Source: Clostridium sp.
Lineage (GTDB): Bacteria; Bacillota; Clostridia; Clostridiales; Clostridiaceae
NCBI RefSeq assembly: GCF_022482905.1
Contig: NZ_JAKVOI010000001.1
Coordinates: forward strand, 496,001 to 560,000
Reading direction: 5' to 3'
Length of the DNA: 64,000 bases
The position numbers were made by a program, and so were the translations under genes. The notes under the pieces are model-generated. The model searched no databases and had not been told where the DNA came from. It saw only the letters and a program-made list of their open reading frames with translations. Below, piece by piece: positions 3,155 through 38,514 of the stretch; positions within the stretch are counted from its first letter, which is position 1; each line of letters begins with the position of its first letter.

Positions 3155-3985
3155 TTATTCAGATAGCTCATTGAGTTTGTTAATTAATATAGTAAGATTG
3201 CTTATGGAAGCATTAAGTTCTTGAATCTGGGAAAGTTGATCCTTGAATGTATCTGAGGTGGAACTTATTCCACTGGATATATTATTTACCGATTTTTCTA
3301 TTTCCTTAAGTATGGAGTTTATTTGGGATACAGACTCAGTACTTGAACTTGACAACTTTCGTATTTCATTTGCAACTACAGTAAACCCTTTTCCGTTTTC
3401 TCCTGCCCTTGAAGCCTCAATAGCTGCATTTAGGCCTAAAAGATTTGTCTTAGAAGCTATATTTTTAATAAAATCTAATACTTCATCTGTATTTTTAGTT
3501 TTTTCTGCAGCATCCTTGACTTCCGACAATATGTTTTCATTGGAATTTACCGATTTTTCTACATCAGAAGTTATAACTTCTGAAGCTTTTGAAATTCCCT
3601 GAATGGCTTTTGACAATATTTTAGAAGCCTCCAGAAATTTATAGTGACGTTCCATGCTTTTAACCAAAACTACACTGCCTATTATTTTATCATCCTCTTT
3701 TACTGGTATTCCTATGGCTTTTATTTCAACACCAAAGGTTTCCTTGGGAACTATTGTTACTATTGGTTTGCCGGCCTTTATGCATTCATAGGCAGCCCCT
3801 TTAGGTCTCAAAGGATCGCCGGGTTTTGCATTCATGTTTATATTTTCACTGTTTACTACCTTTATGAAGTTGGTAGTAGTTGACATAGTAAAGGCTATCT
3901 CATCGTCGAAAAAGTAGTGCATATAAGGGATTAGAATATCAAAAGCTTTTTGGAATGTGTTATTAATTTCAATAGTATTTTCCAT
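3155..3985 (-). CDS. Soluble methyl-accepting-chemotaxis-type signalling protein
   Basis: The 276-residue protein has no membrane segment. Residues about 1-115 form a small sensor domain of PAS/Cache-like character. From about 130 on it is the coiled-coil signalling domain of chemoreceptors, with the hairpin-tip region rich in [16 protein letters not shown]. The tip is unusually short and the protein lacks HAMP, so it is a cytoplasmic receptor. The ligand is unknown. Its start follows a G-rich ribosome-binding site, and the HAD phosphatase is its downstream operon partner. Confidence 0.88.
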
Positions 3986-4203
3986 TTTTTATACCGCCCC
4001 CGGATTAAAGCATAATTTAAAATATATGATTTACTAAATATAATTTTAAGTGCTGGAGAGGGATTTGTCCATAATTAATTTTTAGGTTGTTTTTGTATAA
4101 AAAGTCACATTTACTCCGCTGATTAATATTATAGAAGTATAGAACACATGATAAAAAATTAGTATACCTAGTAAATATTTAAGAAAACAAGGAGGGGTCT
4201 AGT

Positions 4204-4317
4204 ATGTCACACAGATGTAATGATAACAGTTCAGCAAGAAAATGTGGATCTGGGAAAGAGGTATTGATAATAATAATCATACTGATACTATTCTGTGGTA
4301 TTAGTTGTGGAGACTAA
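4204..4317 (+). CDS. Cys-rich tiny membrane protein, copy 1
   Basis: A 37-residue reading frame with a very strong AAGGAGGGG ribosome-binding site just upstream. The N-terminal half is polar with two Cys. It is followed by KEV and a run of about a dozen Ile/Leu residues, and the protein ends FCGISCGD. The architecture is a short hydrophobic segment capped by Cys-Gly motifs. I do not recognise a family. Bases 4246-4314 are nearly identical to 4451-4519 in the next gene, with four differences, three of them silent, which supports real coding and recent tandem duplication. Confidence 0.8.
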   Translation: MSHRCNDNSSARKCGSGKEVLIIIIILILFCGISCGD

Positions 4318-4417
4318 TAAAAGAAAGTAACAATTCACCTGATTCACCAATATACTGAAATTGAACAAAAGATTAAAAATAAGTTAGCTTAATACAAGAT
4401 GATAAGGAGGGGTCTTT

Positions 4418-4528
4418 ATGTCACGTTCAAGTAGCTGCGGATCAGGTAGTGGATCCGGGAAAGAGGTATTGGTAATAATAATCATACTGATACTATTCTG
4501 CGGTATTAGCTGTGGAGACAGATACTAA
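4418..4528 (+). CDS. Cys-rich tiny membrane protein, copy 2
   Basis: A 36-residue paralogue of the preceding gene, with the same AAGGAGGGGTCT leader before its ATG. The N-terminus is Ser/Gly-rich with one Cys. The Ile/Leu segment and FCGISCGD tail repeat those of copy 1 with one Ile-to-Val change, plus two extra residues (RY). The function is unknown. A small hairpin at 4563-4586 follows it, so the third copy may be transcribed separately. Confidence 0.8.
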   Translation: MSRSSSCGSGSGSGKEVLVIIIILILFCGISCGDRY

Positions 4529-4562
4529 TACAAAAAGATAAATTTTATATGATTAACTTTTA

Positions 4563-4591
4563 AAGAGGGACAGATATGCCCCTCTTCTGTT
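4563..4591 (+). terminator. Weak hairpin after copy 2
   Basis: A 7-bp stem (4563-4569 with 4580-4586) and a short T-containing tail lie between the second and third small genes. It could attenuate read-through. Confidence 0.5.
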
Positions 4592-4664
4592 TATAGAATA
4601 TATACTTTAGAACAGGAGATTAAAAATCGAAGAACGATATATTGGATAATAAGGAGGGATTTTT

Positions 4665-4790
4665 ATGTCATGCTGCAGACATAGGTGTCATAGACATAGG
4701 GACTGTGGATGTTTTGGAGGCAGTAATAAGTGTATAATAATATTGATATTGCTGATATGCTTCTGCGGATGCGGCAGAAGATTCTGTTAG
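4665..4790 (+). CDS. Cys-rich tiny membrane protein, copy 3 (diverged)
   Basis: A 41-residue protein behind an AAGGAGGG ribosome-binding site. The N-terminus is rich in Cys, His and Arg (about six Cys/His pairs in the first 16 residues). An Ile/Leu segment follows, ending CFCGCGRRFC. It keeps the layout of copies 1 and 2 but has nine Cys in total, so metal binding, disulfide cross-linking or a structural spore or envelope role are open possibilities. It is not assigned to a family. Confidence 0.76.
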   Translation: MSCCRHRCHRHRDCGCFGGSNKCIIILILLICFCGCGRRFC

Positions 4791-4818: not shown

Positions 4819-4850
4819 AAGGGAAAATGAGGAATTCATTTTCCCTTTTC
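4819..4850. terminator. Bidirectional terminator
   Basis: A perfect 12-bp stem (4819-4830 with 4836-4847) and a 5-base loop sit between the Cys-rich small genes and the convergent Crp/Fnr gene. It ends in TTTT on the plus strand and in an equivalent run on the minus strand. Confidence 0.85.
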
Positions 4851-5527
4851 TAATAAAATAAATTATATATAGATTCTATGTCCTTTATGATTATCGTATT
4901 TTTTATCATTTCAATTAAATTGTCATTTTTCATATTTATAAGTTCTCTTGAAAGTGAAGGTCTCGGAACTCCAAGCTGACCGGCCAATTCCTTTTTTGTA
5001 ATATTCAATTTTACTCTCAAGCTTTTTTGTGATTCATATTCTTCCAAAAGATATGCTGCAATTTTCTGCCTTAAAGTCTGATAGGACATGTTTTTTACTT
5101 TTTTATTCAGCATCAATATCTTGTCAGACAGAAGCGTCATAAAATTATTCAAAAAAATAGAGTGCATACTGCAGAGCTTTAATATACTCTCCTTTGATAT
5201 AAACATTATATTTGAACTGGTTGAGGAAATTATGGTTGCAGGGTAGGTATTTCTATTTGAAAATATTATAACCTCACCAAATATATTGCCTTCGGATAAA
5301 CTGCTCATGGTAATGATTTTACCAGATGCATACAGCTTTTGTACTTCAACGATTCCGCTAAGTATTATACCTATTTTTGAACAGCTGGAACCTTCTATGG
5401 CAATGACTTCATTTCTTGAATAGCTGTCAACAGTAAGGGGAAGCCCCGCCAGAAGATTTTCTATTTCACTGTCAGAAAAATTTTTCATCAATATGCATTT
5501 CTTCAATGGGTTTAACATTGTATCCAT
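4850..5527 (-). CDS. Crp/Fnr-family transcriptional regulator
   Basis: A 225-residue regulator with a cyclic-nucleotide-binding-like beta-barrel in the first ~120 residues, a long dimer helix, and a C-terminal winged helix (recognition region near GVPRPSLSREL). I chose the ATG at 5527 because GGAG lies 8 bases upstream; a longer start at 5569 has no ribosome-binding site and would overlap the operator. No FNR-type Cys cluster is visible. It is divergent from an iron-sulfur protein, as in clostridial HcpR-like loci that respond to nitrosative or redox stress. The ligand is inferred only by analogy. Confidence 0.88.
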   Translation of the reverse strand: MDTMLNPLKKCILMKNFSDSEIENLLAGLPLTVDSYSRNEVIAIEGSSCSKIGIILSGIVEVQKLYASGKIITMSSLSEGNIFGEVIIFSNRNTYPATIISSTSSNIMFISKESILKLCSMHSIFLNNFMTLLSDKILMLNKKVKNMSYQTLRQKIAAYLLEEYESQKSLRVKLNITKKELAGQLGVPRPSLSRELINMKNDNLIEMIKNTIIIKDIESIYNLFY

Positions 5528-5562
5528 AGTATATACTCCAATATAGAAAATTTTTGATTGTT

Positions 5563-5576
5563 GTAACATTGGTTAC
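5563..5576. promoter_or_regulatory. Crp/Fnr-type palindromic operator
   Basis: The perfect inverted repeat GTAAC-ATTG-GTTAC lies in the divergent intergenic region. A TATAAT box on the plus strand at 5599-5604 would put the start site near 5611, so the dyad centre falls at about -41.5, the classic class II activator position. No good -35 box is present there, consistent with activator dependence. Confidence 0.65.
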
Positions 5577-5644: not shown

Positions 5645-6364
5645 ATGATAAGAAAAATAGTTAATATAAATAAGGAAAAATGTAATGGATGTGGACTGTG
5701 TGTTAATGCCTGCCACGAAGGTGCAATAAAAATAGTTGATGGAAAAGCTGAACTCATAAGTGATGAGTATTGTGATGGATTGGGGGATTGCCTTCCTGAA
5801 TGTCCTACAGGTGCAATAAATATAGTTGAAAGGGAAAGCAAGCCATATGATGAAGAAATGGTCATAAGCACGAAAAAGGAAAAGCTGCCCTGCGGGTGCC
5901 CTGGAACAGCGGCCAGAAAAATAAATAGAAAAACTGGTGTTAATTTGAAAGCTGATAATAAAATCGATAATGGAGTCAACGATGTAGAAAATAATGTATC
6001 TGAATTACAACAGTGGCCGGTTCAGTTGAAGCTTATAAACACAAAGGCTCCTTATTTGAAAAATGCGGATCTTTTGGTAGCTGCAGATTGCACTGCCTAT
6101 GCCTATGGAGGGTTTCACAAGGACTTCATAAAAGGCCGTATTACAGTTATAGGATGTCCTAAATTAGATGATATATCCTATTATGAAGATAAACTTGCAG
6201 AGATAATTTCAAATAACGATTTAAAAAGTATAACTGTTGTAAGAATGGAAGTTCCGTGCTGCAGGGGAATTGTAAGTGCGGTGAAAAATGCAATGTTGAA
6301 GTCTCAGACAATAATTCCATATAGGGAAGTTGTTGTTTCAACTGATGGCAATATCATAAGCTAG
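5645..6364 (+). CDS. Ferredoxin-domain iron-sulfur protein
   Basis: A 239-residue protein with a GAGGAGG ribosome-binding site. Residues 13-23 hold a full 4Fe-4S motif (Cys13, 16, 19, 23). The second motif has Cys43, Cys49 and Cys53 and lacks one of the usual four. A PCGCPG Cys pair lies near residue 80. The C-terminal half has further conserved-looking cysteines, in AADCTAYAYGG, a GCPK segment and an EVPCCRG segment. The layout is that of iron-sulfur proteins found beside HcpR-type regulators. It probably carries electrons or a cluster in a redox or nitrosative response. Its 3' end overlaps the convergent dipeptidase gene by 11 bases. Confidence 0.85.
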   Translation: MIRKIVNINKEKCNGCGLCVNACHEGAIKIVDGKAELISDEYCDGLGDCLPECPTGAINIVERESKPYDEEMVISTKKEKLPCGCPGTAARKINRKTGVNLKADNKIDNGVNDVENNVSELQQWPVQLKLINTKAPYLKNADLLVAADCTAYAYGGFHKDFIKGRITVIGCPKLDDISYYEDKLAEIISNNDLKSITVVRMEVPCCRGIVSAVKNAMLKSQTIIPYREVVVSTDGNIIS

Positions 6365-18731: not shown

Positions 18732-19823
18732 ATGTCAAGAATTATTATCTCTACTGGAAAGTATGTGCAGGGCAATGGCGAATTGGCAAATATATATAAC
18801 TATGTAAAAGATCTTGGAAATAATTTTTTTATAATAGCAAGTAAAAATGGTATAGGAAGAACGAAGCTGACTATAGAAAATAGTTTTAAGGAAAAAAATT
18901 GTTCATTGACATTTGAGACCTTTAATGGAGAATGTTCCAAAAATGAAATAGACAGGCTTTGCAAACGTTTAATTGAAGCTGGAAGCAATGTAGTTGTCGG
19001 CATAGGAGGAGGGAAAATATTTGATACCGCAAAAGCAGTAGCACATTTTTCAGGAATACCGGTTGTAATAGTTCCTACTATAGCAGCAACTGATGCACCA
19101 TGTAGTGCCCTTTCAGTAATATATACAGATGACGGAATATTTAGCGAATATCTTTTCCTACCTAAAAATCCCGACGTTGTACTTGTTGATTCATCCATAA
19201 TTTCAAAGGCTCCTGTAAGACTTTTAGTTGCAGGTATGGGAGATGCACTGGCTACATATTTTGAAGCTAGAGCCTGCGTTAATTCCGGGGTAGTTACTAT
19301 GGCTGGAGGTAAAGCTACAAAAGCTGCTTTTGCCCTTTCAAAGTTATGCTATGATACGCTCCTTGAGGATGGGCTTAAAGCTAAAATATCGGTATCTAAC
19401 AAGGTTGTCACTAAGGCACTTGAAAATATAATAGAGGCAAATACTTATTTAAGCGGAGTAGGATTTGAAAGCTGTGGACTTGCAGCTGCACATGCAGTTC
19501 ACAATGGGTTTACTGCAATTAGGGAGAGCCATAGTCTATATCATGGAGAAAAAGTTGCCTTTGGAACATTGGTCCAGTTAATTCTTGAAAATAGTCCTTT
19601 AGAAGAGATAGAAAAGGTTATAAATTTCTGCCTGCAGGTTGGACTGCCGATTACACTGTCTGATCTGGGTATAGAGGAAATAAACAAGGATGATATGATG
19701 AAAGTAGCAGAATTATCATGTGCTGAAGGTGATACAATGCACAATATGCCTTTTGAAGTTACTGAAGAAGATGTGTATGCTGCGATATTATCTGCTGATA
19801 AGATGGGAAGATTGTATATATAA
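18732..19823 (+). CDS. gldA: Glycerol dehydrogenase-type iron/zinc alcohol dehydrogenase
   Basis: A 363-residue NAD-dependent dehydrogenase of the GldA branch. VGIGGGKIFDTAKA is the nucleotide-binding segment, and IVPTIAATDAPCSALSV is family typical. Metal ligands are expected at the Asp in GMGDALATYFEA and at the His residues in the AAHAVHNG and SHSLYHGEKVA segments. It oxidises glycerol to dihydroxyacetone or reduces a related hydroxyketone. It is monocistronic, with GGAG before the ATG and a terminator after the stop. Confidence 0.9.
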   Translation: MSRIIISTGKYVQGNGELANIYNYVKDLGNNFFIIASKNGIGRTKLTIENSFKEKNCSLTFETFNGECSKNEIDRLCKRLIEAGSNVVVGIGGGKIFDTAKAVAHFSGIPVVIVPTIAATDAPCSALSVIYTDDGIFSEYLFLPKNPDVVLVDSSIISKAPVRLLVAGMGDALATYFEARACVNSGVVTMAGGKATKAAFALSKLCYDTLLEDGLKAKISVSNKVVTKALENIIEANTYLSGVGFESCGLAAAHAVHNGFTAIRESHSLYHGEKVAFGTLVQLILENSPLEEIEKVINFCLQVGLPITLSDLGIEEINKDDMMKVAELSCAEGDTMHNMPFEVTEEDVYAAILSADKMGRLYI

Positions 19824-36363: not shown

Positions 36364-38514
36364 TTGTTGATTGAGAGTGCATTGGAGATACTGCATAAAT
36401 ATTATGGATATGAAAAATTCAGGAGCTGCCAGGAGAATGTGATAAAAAGCATTTTGGATGGAAGAGATACTCTAGCCATAATGCCTACAGGCGGCGGAAA
36501 ATCGATATGCTATCAGATACCTGCACTTATTTTTGAAGGAATCACCATAGTAATTTCTCCCTTGATTTCACTTATGAAGGATCAGGTGGATAGTATAAAG
36601 GATCTTGGCATAAAGGCTGATTATATAAACAGCTCGTTGGATCAGGAGGGGATGTTGTCAATAATATCAAGGCTGAAGAAAAATACCATAAAGATATTAT
36701 ATGTGGCTCCGGAAAGACTTGAATCCGTTAATTTCTGCAACATGATGATGAATATGAACATATCCCAGGTAGCTGTGGATGAAGCTCACTGTGTTTCACA
36801 GTGGGGACATGATTTTAGAAGCAGTTACAGGTACATATGGAGATTTGTAGATGGACTTGGTAACAGACCTGTAGTAACGGCTTTCACGGCCACTGCAACT
36901 AAAGAAGTCAGAGAAGACGTTGTAAGACAGATAAAGTTGAAAAAACCTGCCGTGTTTATATCTGGTTTTGACAGGGAGAATTTAAAGATAACCTGCCTGA
37001 AAATAGGCTCCAGATTCTCATATATGTCAAATTATATAGTGAAAAATAAAGATCAATCCGGTATTATATATGCTTCTACCAGAAAGACAGTGGATAATAT
37101 TTACGACAGACTTCTGAAAAATGGAATAAATGTTGTCAGGTATCATGCAGGATTGTCAGATAGTGAAAGGAAGAAAAACCAGGAGGATTTCGTATATGAC
37201 AGGGCGAATGTAATAGTTGCTACAAATGCTTTTGGAATGGGCATAGACAAGTCAAATGTCAGATATGTAATTCACTATAATATTCCTAGAAATATAGAAA
37301 GTTACTATCAGGAAATAGGCAGGGCCGGGAGAGATGGTGAAAATAGCGAATGCATACTTATGTTTGCACCCCAGGATGTAATAACACAAAAATACTTGAT
37401 TGAAAACAGCATACAGTCAGAGGATAGAAGACTGAATGAATACAGGAAGCTGCAGCAGATGGTGGACTTTGTCCATTATAATGGGTGCCTCAGAAAATAT
37501 ATACTCAATTATTTTGGGGAAAAGGTGGATTATGAGGAATGTGGAAATTGCAGCAATTGCATAAGTGAGGGACAGCGCGTAGACAGAACGATAGAAGCCC
37601 AGAAGGTACTGTCCTGTGTATACAGGATGAAAAGAAGCTTTGGAGTGAACATGATAGTTGACGTGCTCAGAGGTTCATCTCAGAAAAAAGTTATTCAAAA
37701 TGGATTCAACAGATTATCTACCTACGGTATAATGAAGGAGTATTCTAAAGAATTCCTTTCGAGCTTTGTAAATACACTTATAGCTCATGGATATGCATCC
37801 CTCAAGGAGGGAGAGTATCCAACAGTAGTTTTAAATGAGAAATCCGTAAAAATTCTGAAGGGAATTGACAGGGTGGTACTGAAGGAACAGGTGGAAACCA
37901 GAAGAATAAGTGTAAATAATAATCTGTTTGAGATACTCAGGGAGCTCAGAAAGAATATAGCTGTAAAAGAGGCTATACCTCCATACTTGATATTTTCAGA
38001 TAGTACTTTAAGAGAAATGAGTGCCCGATACCCATGTACAGAAGAACAGATGCTGGATATATCGGGGGTTGGAGATCTGAAATTGAATAAATATGCAGGA
38101 CCATTTCTGGAAAAAATAAAAAAGTATGTTTTAGAAAATAGTATAGATGTAAACTGGGTATTTAACAAGGAAGATACATCCAGAAAATCAAAAAAACCGA
38201 GTACCTATGACATAACAATAGATATGGTAAAACATAATAAGAGCATAGTGGAAATTGCTTCAGAAAGAGGAGTTACAATCTCTACTATACTGACTCACAT
38301 TAAAAAATATGCTGAAATAGGCAATGAGCTGAACTTTAACATAGAGTTTGGAAGCTTGTTTACGGAAAAAGAGGAGAAAGTTATTATGTCGGCTATAGAC
38401 AGGGTTGGCTGTGAAAGATTGTATCCAATTAAAGAAATAGTTCCATCAAATATAGACTATGACAAAATAAAGGCTGTAGTACTTAAAAATTGTGTGCTCA
38501 ATAAAATTAGTTGA
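36364..38514 (+). CDS. recQ: ATP-dependent DNA helicase RecQ
   Basis: A 716-residue RecQ helicase. MPTGGGKS is Walker [16 protein letters not shown] is motif II with the RecQ aromatic loop, and EIGRAGRDG is motif VI. A zinc-binding ECGNCSNC segment and the RQC domain follow, then an HRDC domain around 520-600 and a C-terminal winged-helix segment. TTG start with an AGAGGTG site. The stop overlaps the next gene's upstream frame, and the methyltransferase starts 20 bases later. Confidence 0.95.

Follow-up and report, generated by a model that had tools for sequence, protein, structure and literature searches.

What kind of product could be encoded by three very short open reading frames that follow one another near the start of the window, the 64,000-nucleotide stretch analyzed here from a 3.57 Mb Clostridium genome? 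A sequence-only reading had described them as three tandem genes for cysteine-rich microproteins, and open reading frames of 37, 36 and 41 residues are indeed present at that place. Copy 1 (4204–4317, + strand) contains four cysteines and the core VLIIIIILILF, copy 2 (4418–4528, +) contains three cysteines and the core VLVIIIILILF, and copy 3 (4665–4790, +) has the core IIILILLI, a head rich in histidine and arginine, and ten cysteines rather than the nine first counted. The common layout consists of a polar, cysteine-containing head, an Ile/Leu core of 8–11 residues and a Cys-Gly tail. Near-consensus Shine-Dalgarno sequences, assigned from the sequence, are located 5–6 bases upstream of each frame (AAGGAGGGG at 4189–4197 for copy 1 and at 4404–4412 for copy 2; AAGGAGGG at 4651–4658 for copy 3; all on the + strand), in near-identical contexts (AAGGAGGGGTCTAGT-ATG, AAGGAGGGGTCTTT-ATG and AAGGAGGGATTTTT-ATG, respectively). 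Between copies and ribosome-binding sites lies a leader string (TTAGnTAACTTAA-like; 4368–4403 in the window) that is conserved and in part palindromic, and that is also found at second copies in relatives; judged by eye, it does not have the appearance of a covarying hairpin. Two hairpins were noted on the + strand, one between copies 2 and 3 (4563–4586; −11.5 kcal/mol for 4560–4600) and one, terminator-like with an 11-bp stem and a short T tract, downstream of copy 3 (4820–4846); a simple terminator scan flagged neither.

The 69-base block shared by copies 1 and 2 (4246–4314 and 4451–4519) contains exactly the four differences reported earlier, three silent and one Ile/Val replacement. These had been regarded as the signature of selection on the protein; four differences are too few to carry that claim, and the whole comparison of copies 1 and 2 (dN/dS 0.39) contains only about 21 changes, so that this pair alone is little proof of selection. 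The claim holds across species. When four species pairs are taken together, 63.7 synonymous changes at 197 sites and 68.3 non-synonymous changes at 718 sites give a pN/pS of 0.29 (Fisher p = 8e-14, computed on rounded counts), which identifies the reading frames as real protein genes. Single between-genome comparisons range in dN/dS from 0.14 to 0.73, the maximum being that of a pair with 11 changes (G006/G007). The microprotein reading frames are thus protein-coding genes under protein-level selection. In the accessible portion of a ribosome profiling study of C. ljungdahlii (PMC6203783), no mention of these frames was found.

Members of the family were detected in all 13 genomes of a genus sample that includes C. 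tyrobutyricum, C. ljungdahlii, C. ragsdalei, C. luticellarii and C. algifaecis (copy 2 as query with E-values up to 0.1, and a 30-row profile), and the reading frame, on whose retention in homologues the sequence-only reading had made its claim depend, is kept across the genus. A search for related loci with the protein alignment as query returned no match. The 33 genes encode proteins of 27–45 residues with 3–10 cysteines, copy 2 lying at the low end of the cysteine range; 28 of them reside in one syntenic tandem locus, and five are solitary copies in three genomes. The tandem contains three copies in the window's genome and in one other (G012), and two apiece in the remaining 11. The best-conserved part of the microproteins is the core, 7–11 residues that are aliphatic and β-branched.

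Hydrophobic peptides of 30–45 residues, encoded in tandem behind strong ribosome-binding sites, are a typical picture for type I toxins, and the genes could on that ground be toxin-like and controlled by antisense RNA. This is highly improbable, however, for a locus that keeps one chromosomal position in 13 of 13 genomes rather than being mobile or sporadic, and for peptides with many cysteines and larger Cys-rich relatives. Comparison of the window stretch with phage records gave no match, nor did comparison of one relative's protein with plasmids, a search in which a peptide of this kind may be masked by the low-complexity filter; an Rfam scan likewise gave no match, though an antisense RNA that has not been described could exist.

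The surroundings of the tandem are partly conserved. A gene for a 4Fe-4S protein (5645–6364 in the window) is found near it in 13 of 13 genomes, while an MCP-like gene (3155–3985, − strand) and a gene for a Crp-type regulator (4850–5569) each adjoin it in nine of 13. The MCP-like protein has 276 residues, with the MCP signaling domain starting at residue 142. None of the 13 reference neighbor genes is close to the solitary copies, and the neighbors as found do not explain the function of the microproteins. Nor does anything found, the Crp-type regulator included, tie the genes to metal, as had been suggested. Metallothionein-like peptides for metal binding or redox buffering would be in keeping with 3–10 cysteines in 27–45 residues and with the His/Arg-rich head of copy 3, but the aliphatic core, not a fixed spacing of Cys or His, is what is most conserved, and no metal link was found among the neighbor genes; such a role is therefore very unlikely.

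The sequence-only reading knew of no described family with exactly this arrangement, and the microproteins match none in Pfam, NCBIfam or Rfam. Profile scans against Pfam and NCBIfam produced only sub-threshold chance hits (E 0.15–0.17), and the CsxC family model (NF045794) was not matched above its cut-off, the sole NCBIfam hit belonging to another model (E 0.15). There was also no profile match to the named tiny sporulation families in these databases, such as the YjcZ-like ones, and no paper describing the family was found in literature searches, as judged by titles and the beginnings of abstracts.

A conserved promoter element is located upstream of copy 1 (4104–4133, + strand), with the sequence GTCACATTT-N10-TTAATATTATA, or, in sigma-K-like form, AC-N16-AATATTATA. 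All 18 upstream regions of first or solitary copies can be aligned on it, in a form like AGT[A/C]AC[N]TTT-N-TA[A/G]TATTATA with a conserved AGTAyA..AACA after it, and the letters GT[A/C]AC of its −35 region are invariant. The occurrence of the genes in all 13 genomes, at one syntenic location and with this element upstream, puts the tandem far beyond chance. Published descriptions of the sigma-K signature pair AC at −35 with a −10 of mother-cell type, for example CATATTAT (available portion of PMC3789822), or give it as mACm-N16-CATANNNTA (available portion of PMC5749712). The element resembles a sigma-K promoter (AC-N16-xATAnnnTA), but the first base of its −10 is A, not C: the canonical form AC-N16-17-CATANNNTA is present at one of 18 first copies, and the form with A or C at 16 of 18. 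Read as a sigma-A promoter, it is GTCACA-N17-TATTAT and agrees with the consensus at 9 of 12 positions. Owing to the A at −10 and this sigma-A fit, it is termed sigma-K-like here, and sigma-K is the presumed sigma factor on the basis of sequence.

The sigma-A fit, together with a hydrophobic core between polar ends, would also suit single-span membrane microproteins transcribed by sigma-A in vegetative or stationary cells, with a role in the envelope, for example as the small partner of a membrane complex, and none in the spore. The invariant −35 letters are GT[A/C]AC and not TTG, however; a core of 7–11 residues is short for a membrane span; and both the promoter class and the hydrophobic-cysteine unit recur in Cys-rich proteins, as described below. 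This reading is thus unlikely, though it is the least improbable of the alternatives.

A degenerate form of the element gave 26 matches in the 13 genomes, compared to three for a backward control. By coordinates, 21 of these are at microprotein genes, as expected for a pattern built from those sequences; one is upstream of a CsxC-family gene (NF045794, E 3.9e-56) and one is without a clear gene. The remaining three (L100, L101 and L120) are upstream of one orthologous reading frame of 111–113 residues, of which one version was scanned and belongs to no known family. CsxC-family genes number 13 in eight of the 13 genus genomes, two of them below the curated cut-off; none is present in the window's own genome or in four others, so that the microproteins are independent of CsxC.

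The pattern AC-N16-[AC]ATAN[AT]ATA, within 220 bases upstream, is present at 16 of 18 first copies and at 8 of 13 CsxC-family genes, compared to none of 13 CotJB and none of 30 SASP genes, 2 of 122 other reading frames and 32 of 3600 shuffled sequences; the CotJB controls are qualified, since CotJB does not head its operon and one of the 13 (L140) is a misassigned reading frame. The canonical CATA −10 was found at 1 of 18 first copies, 5 of 13 CsxC-family genes, no CotJB or SASP gene and 10 of 122 other reading frames. YabG is reported to be controlled by sigma-K in C. difficile (available portion of PMC3789822). The form AC-N15-17-[ACG]ATANNNTA is present upstream of YabG in 12 of 13 genomes and of SpoIVA, some of whose starts are uncertain (L203, L205), in 2 of 13, and a stricter pattern in four and none; AC stands at N16 in the microprotein element and likewise in four YabG promoters.

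A second pattern, GT..C(A)-N-AATANTATA, separates the groups further. It is carried by first or solitary copies in 16 of 18 cases, by larger Cys-rich proteins (see below) in 12 of 15 and by CsxC-family genes in 4 of 13, compared to none of 69 CotJB, SASP, YabG and SpoIVA regions (among them none of 13 for YabG, itself likely a sigma-K gene), none of 122 other genus reading frames, 13 of 4600 shuffles (0.3%) and none of 46 reverse complements. The patterns that separate the groups were composed with the sequences already in view, and the totals count closely related genomes several times over. Two of the three larger proteins that lack the pattern (L215 and L218) stand downstream of another unit-bearing gene. 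Second and third microprotein copies lack it (0 of 15), three having the AC-N16 form, and most are thus presumably transcribed from the first promoter. Elsewhere in the window, a loose promoter-pattern match at 19404 (+) lies inside a long reading frame and is probably due to chance, and another match to the loose pattern is found at 37305 (−).

Some results count against the spore reading. A weight matrix was made from 14 microprotein promoters, namely those of 13 first or solitary copies (out of 18, near-duplicates having been dropped) and of one second copy. It scored above 95% of shuffles at only 3 of 13 CsxC, 2 of 13 CotJB and 3 of 30 SASP genes; this stricter matrix did not link CsxC to the microproteins. 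The lack of the second pattern at YabG and the absence of CsxC from five genomes of the genus, the window's own included, are further points against.

Outside the genus, 14 places in the remaining 193 genomes of the family passed E 0.01 with a profile of microproteins only. Six are proteins with 7–44 cysteines (L055, L056, L058, L061, L064 and L065), six have starts that resemble a signal peptide or membrane anchor, and two (L063 and L067) are not classifiable. The GT..C(A)-N-AATANTATA pattern is present at four of the six Cys-rich places, which are part of the 15 larger proteins and not additional to them, and at none of the seven others scored (L067 was left unscored). Across the phylum (299 genomes, including the window's own), only one other genome matches, with a 25-residue reading frame. 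With a mixed profile, built from six units from four of the 14 places plus five microproteins, matches were obtained in 44 of 206 genomes, of which 13 are the genus.

Among 17 loci inspected outside the genus, 15 encode Cys/Gly-rich proteins of 52–227 residues that contain, once or twice, a unit resembling GGFGxG-(W)IIILLLF-CCGGCG; the other two are lipoprotein-like (L054) and without a start codon (L233). The smallest of the 15 (L232, 52 residues, from a different genus) has one unit only and resembles copy 3, which means that single-unit forms are not strictly limited to this genus. Upstream of most of the larger proteins is a GTGTCAA-N-GAATAGTATATAGTA-like sequence, in some cases with a leader like AACAAAAGATGAAAA. 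Eleven of the 15 loci (L215, L216, L218, L221, L223, L225, L226, L229, L230, L231 and L234) adjoin lon and/or ysxC, as recognized by sequence motifs, with domains confirmed for two. The clusters also contain small Cys-rich reading frames and Asn-rich proteins starting like MSKHHKR; seven cluster proteins (from L213, L215, L216 and L221) matched no family in Pfam or NCBIfam. A 76-residue Cys-rich reading frame in another genus (L065; MSRRYCPTRGSGNG...) resembles the second type of small gene in these clusters. The short unit common to the microproteins and the larger proteins may, judged from sequence, reflect either homology or convergence.

A spore-coat or envelope role had been proposed for the microproteins, and it gains support from a promoter class and a unit that they have in common with larger Cys-rich proteins, the promoter class being shared in part with CsxC exosporium genes. 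For this reason, the microproteins are probably late mother-cell components of the coat or exosporium, packed through their cores and linked by disulfides; where they localize, when they are made, and how they pack and cross-link is what we infer from these likenesses. The three genes would represent the simplest form, with one unit each, of a clostridial class of Cys/Gly-rich proteins of the spore surface. The mother cell would transcribe them late in sporulation, starting at the sigma-K-type promoter at 4104–4133. The peptides would gather on the forming coat or exosporium, where the Ile/Val/Leu core could pack as a strand against other copies or against larger unit-bearing proteins, or alternatively insert shallowly in the outer spore membrane. 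By analogy, the flanking CCGCGC-type cysteines would then form disulfides that lock the assembly. Cysteine-rich CsxA is reported to self-assemble with disulfide links, a building principle of the clostridial exosporium (available portion of PMC7333573), and the earlier suggestion that the microproteins are cross-linked is plausible by analogy with it. CsxC is described as belonging to the exosporium of C. sporogenes, and for C. tyrobutyricum the presence of an exosporium is mentioned as unpublished data (both in the available portion of PMC4942563).

More tentatively, the microproteins could be the smallest members of a hitherto undescribed spore-surface class spread through the Clostridiaceae, co-expressed under the signature promoter GTnnCA-N-AATAnTATA and made of a repeated unit (a Gly/Cys head, an aliphatic or aromatic strand of 7–12 residues and a CCGxGC-type tail), that forms a hydrophobic, β-rich, disulfide-stapled layer. 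The conserved promoter and the hydrophobic-cysteine unit provide a handle on unnamed coat genes, including those of gas-fermenting and cheese-spoiling species, and suggest a testable structural idea, namely that spore layers may be stapled together from peptides of 30–45 residues.

To our knowledge, little is known of clostridial spore coats except in C. difficile and the C. sporogenes group. The microproteins are Cys-rich, as are CsxA, CsxB and CsxC of the C. sporogenes exosporium, and have the AC-N16 promoter class in common with CsxC-family genes of the genus; in contrast to CsxC, they are short, are built on an aliphatic core and match no family model. Their high cysteine content is also a feature of self-assembling spore-surface proteins of the CsxA, ExsY and CotY kind. 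The tiny YjcZ-type membrane proteins of Bacillus sporulation are alike in size, Gly-rich head, aliphatic core and sporulation context, but are not known to carry a Cys-Gly tail. The closest likeness in layout is to the Cys/Gly-rich proteins of other Clostridiaceae genera, which have the same Gly/Cys head, aliphatic or aromatic core and CC/CG tail and mostly the same promoter pattern; these differ in being mostly larger, often with two units and long Cys-rich linkers, in having a tryptophan in the core and in occupying another locus. The microproteins are a new family within a known kind, the Cys-rich spore-surface proteins, and are unusual in their shortness, their hydrophobic-cysteine unit and their promoter.
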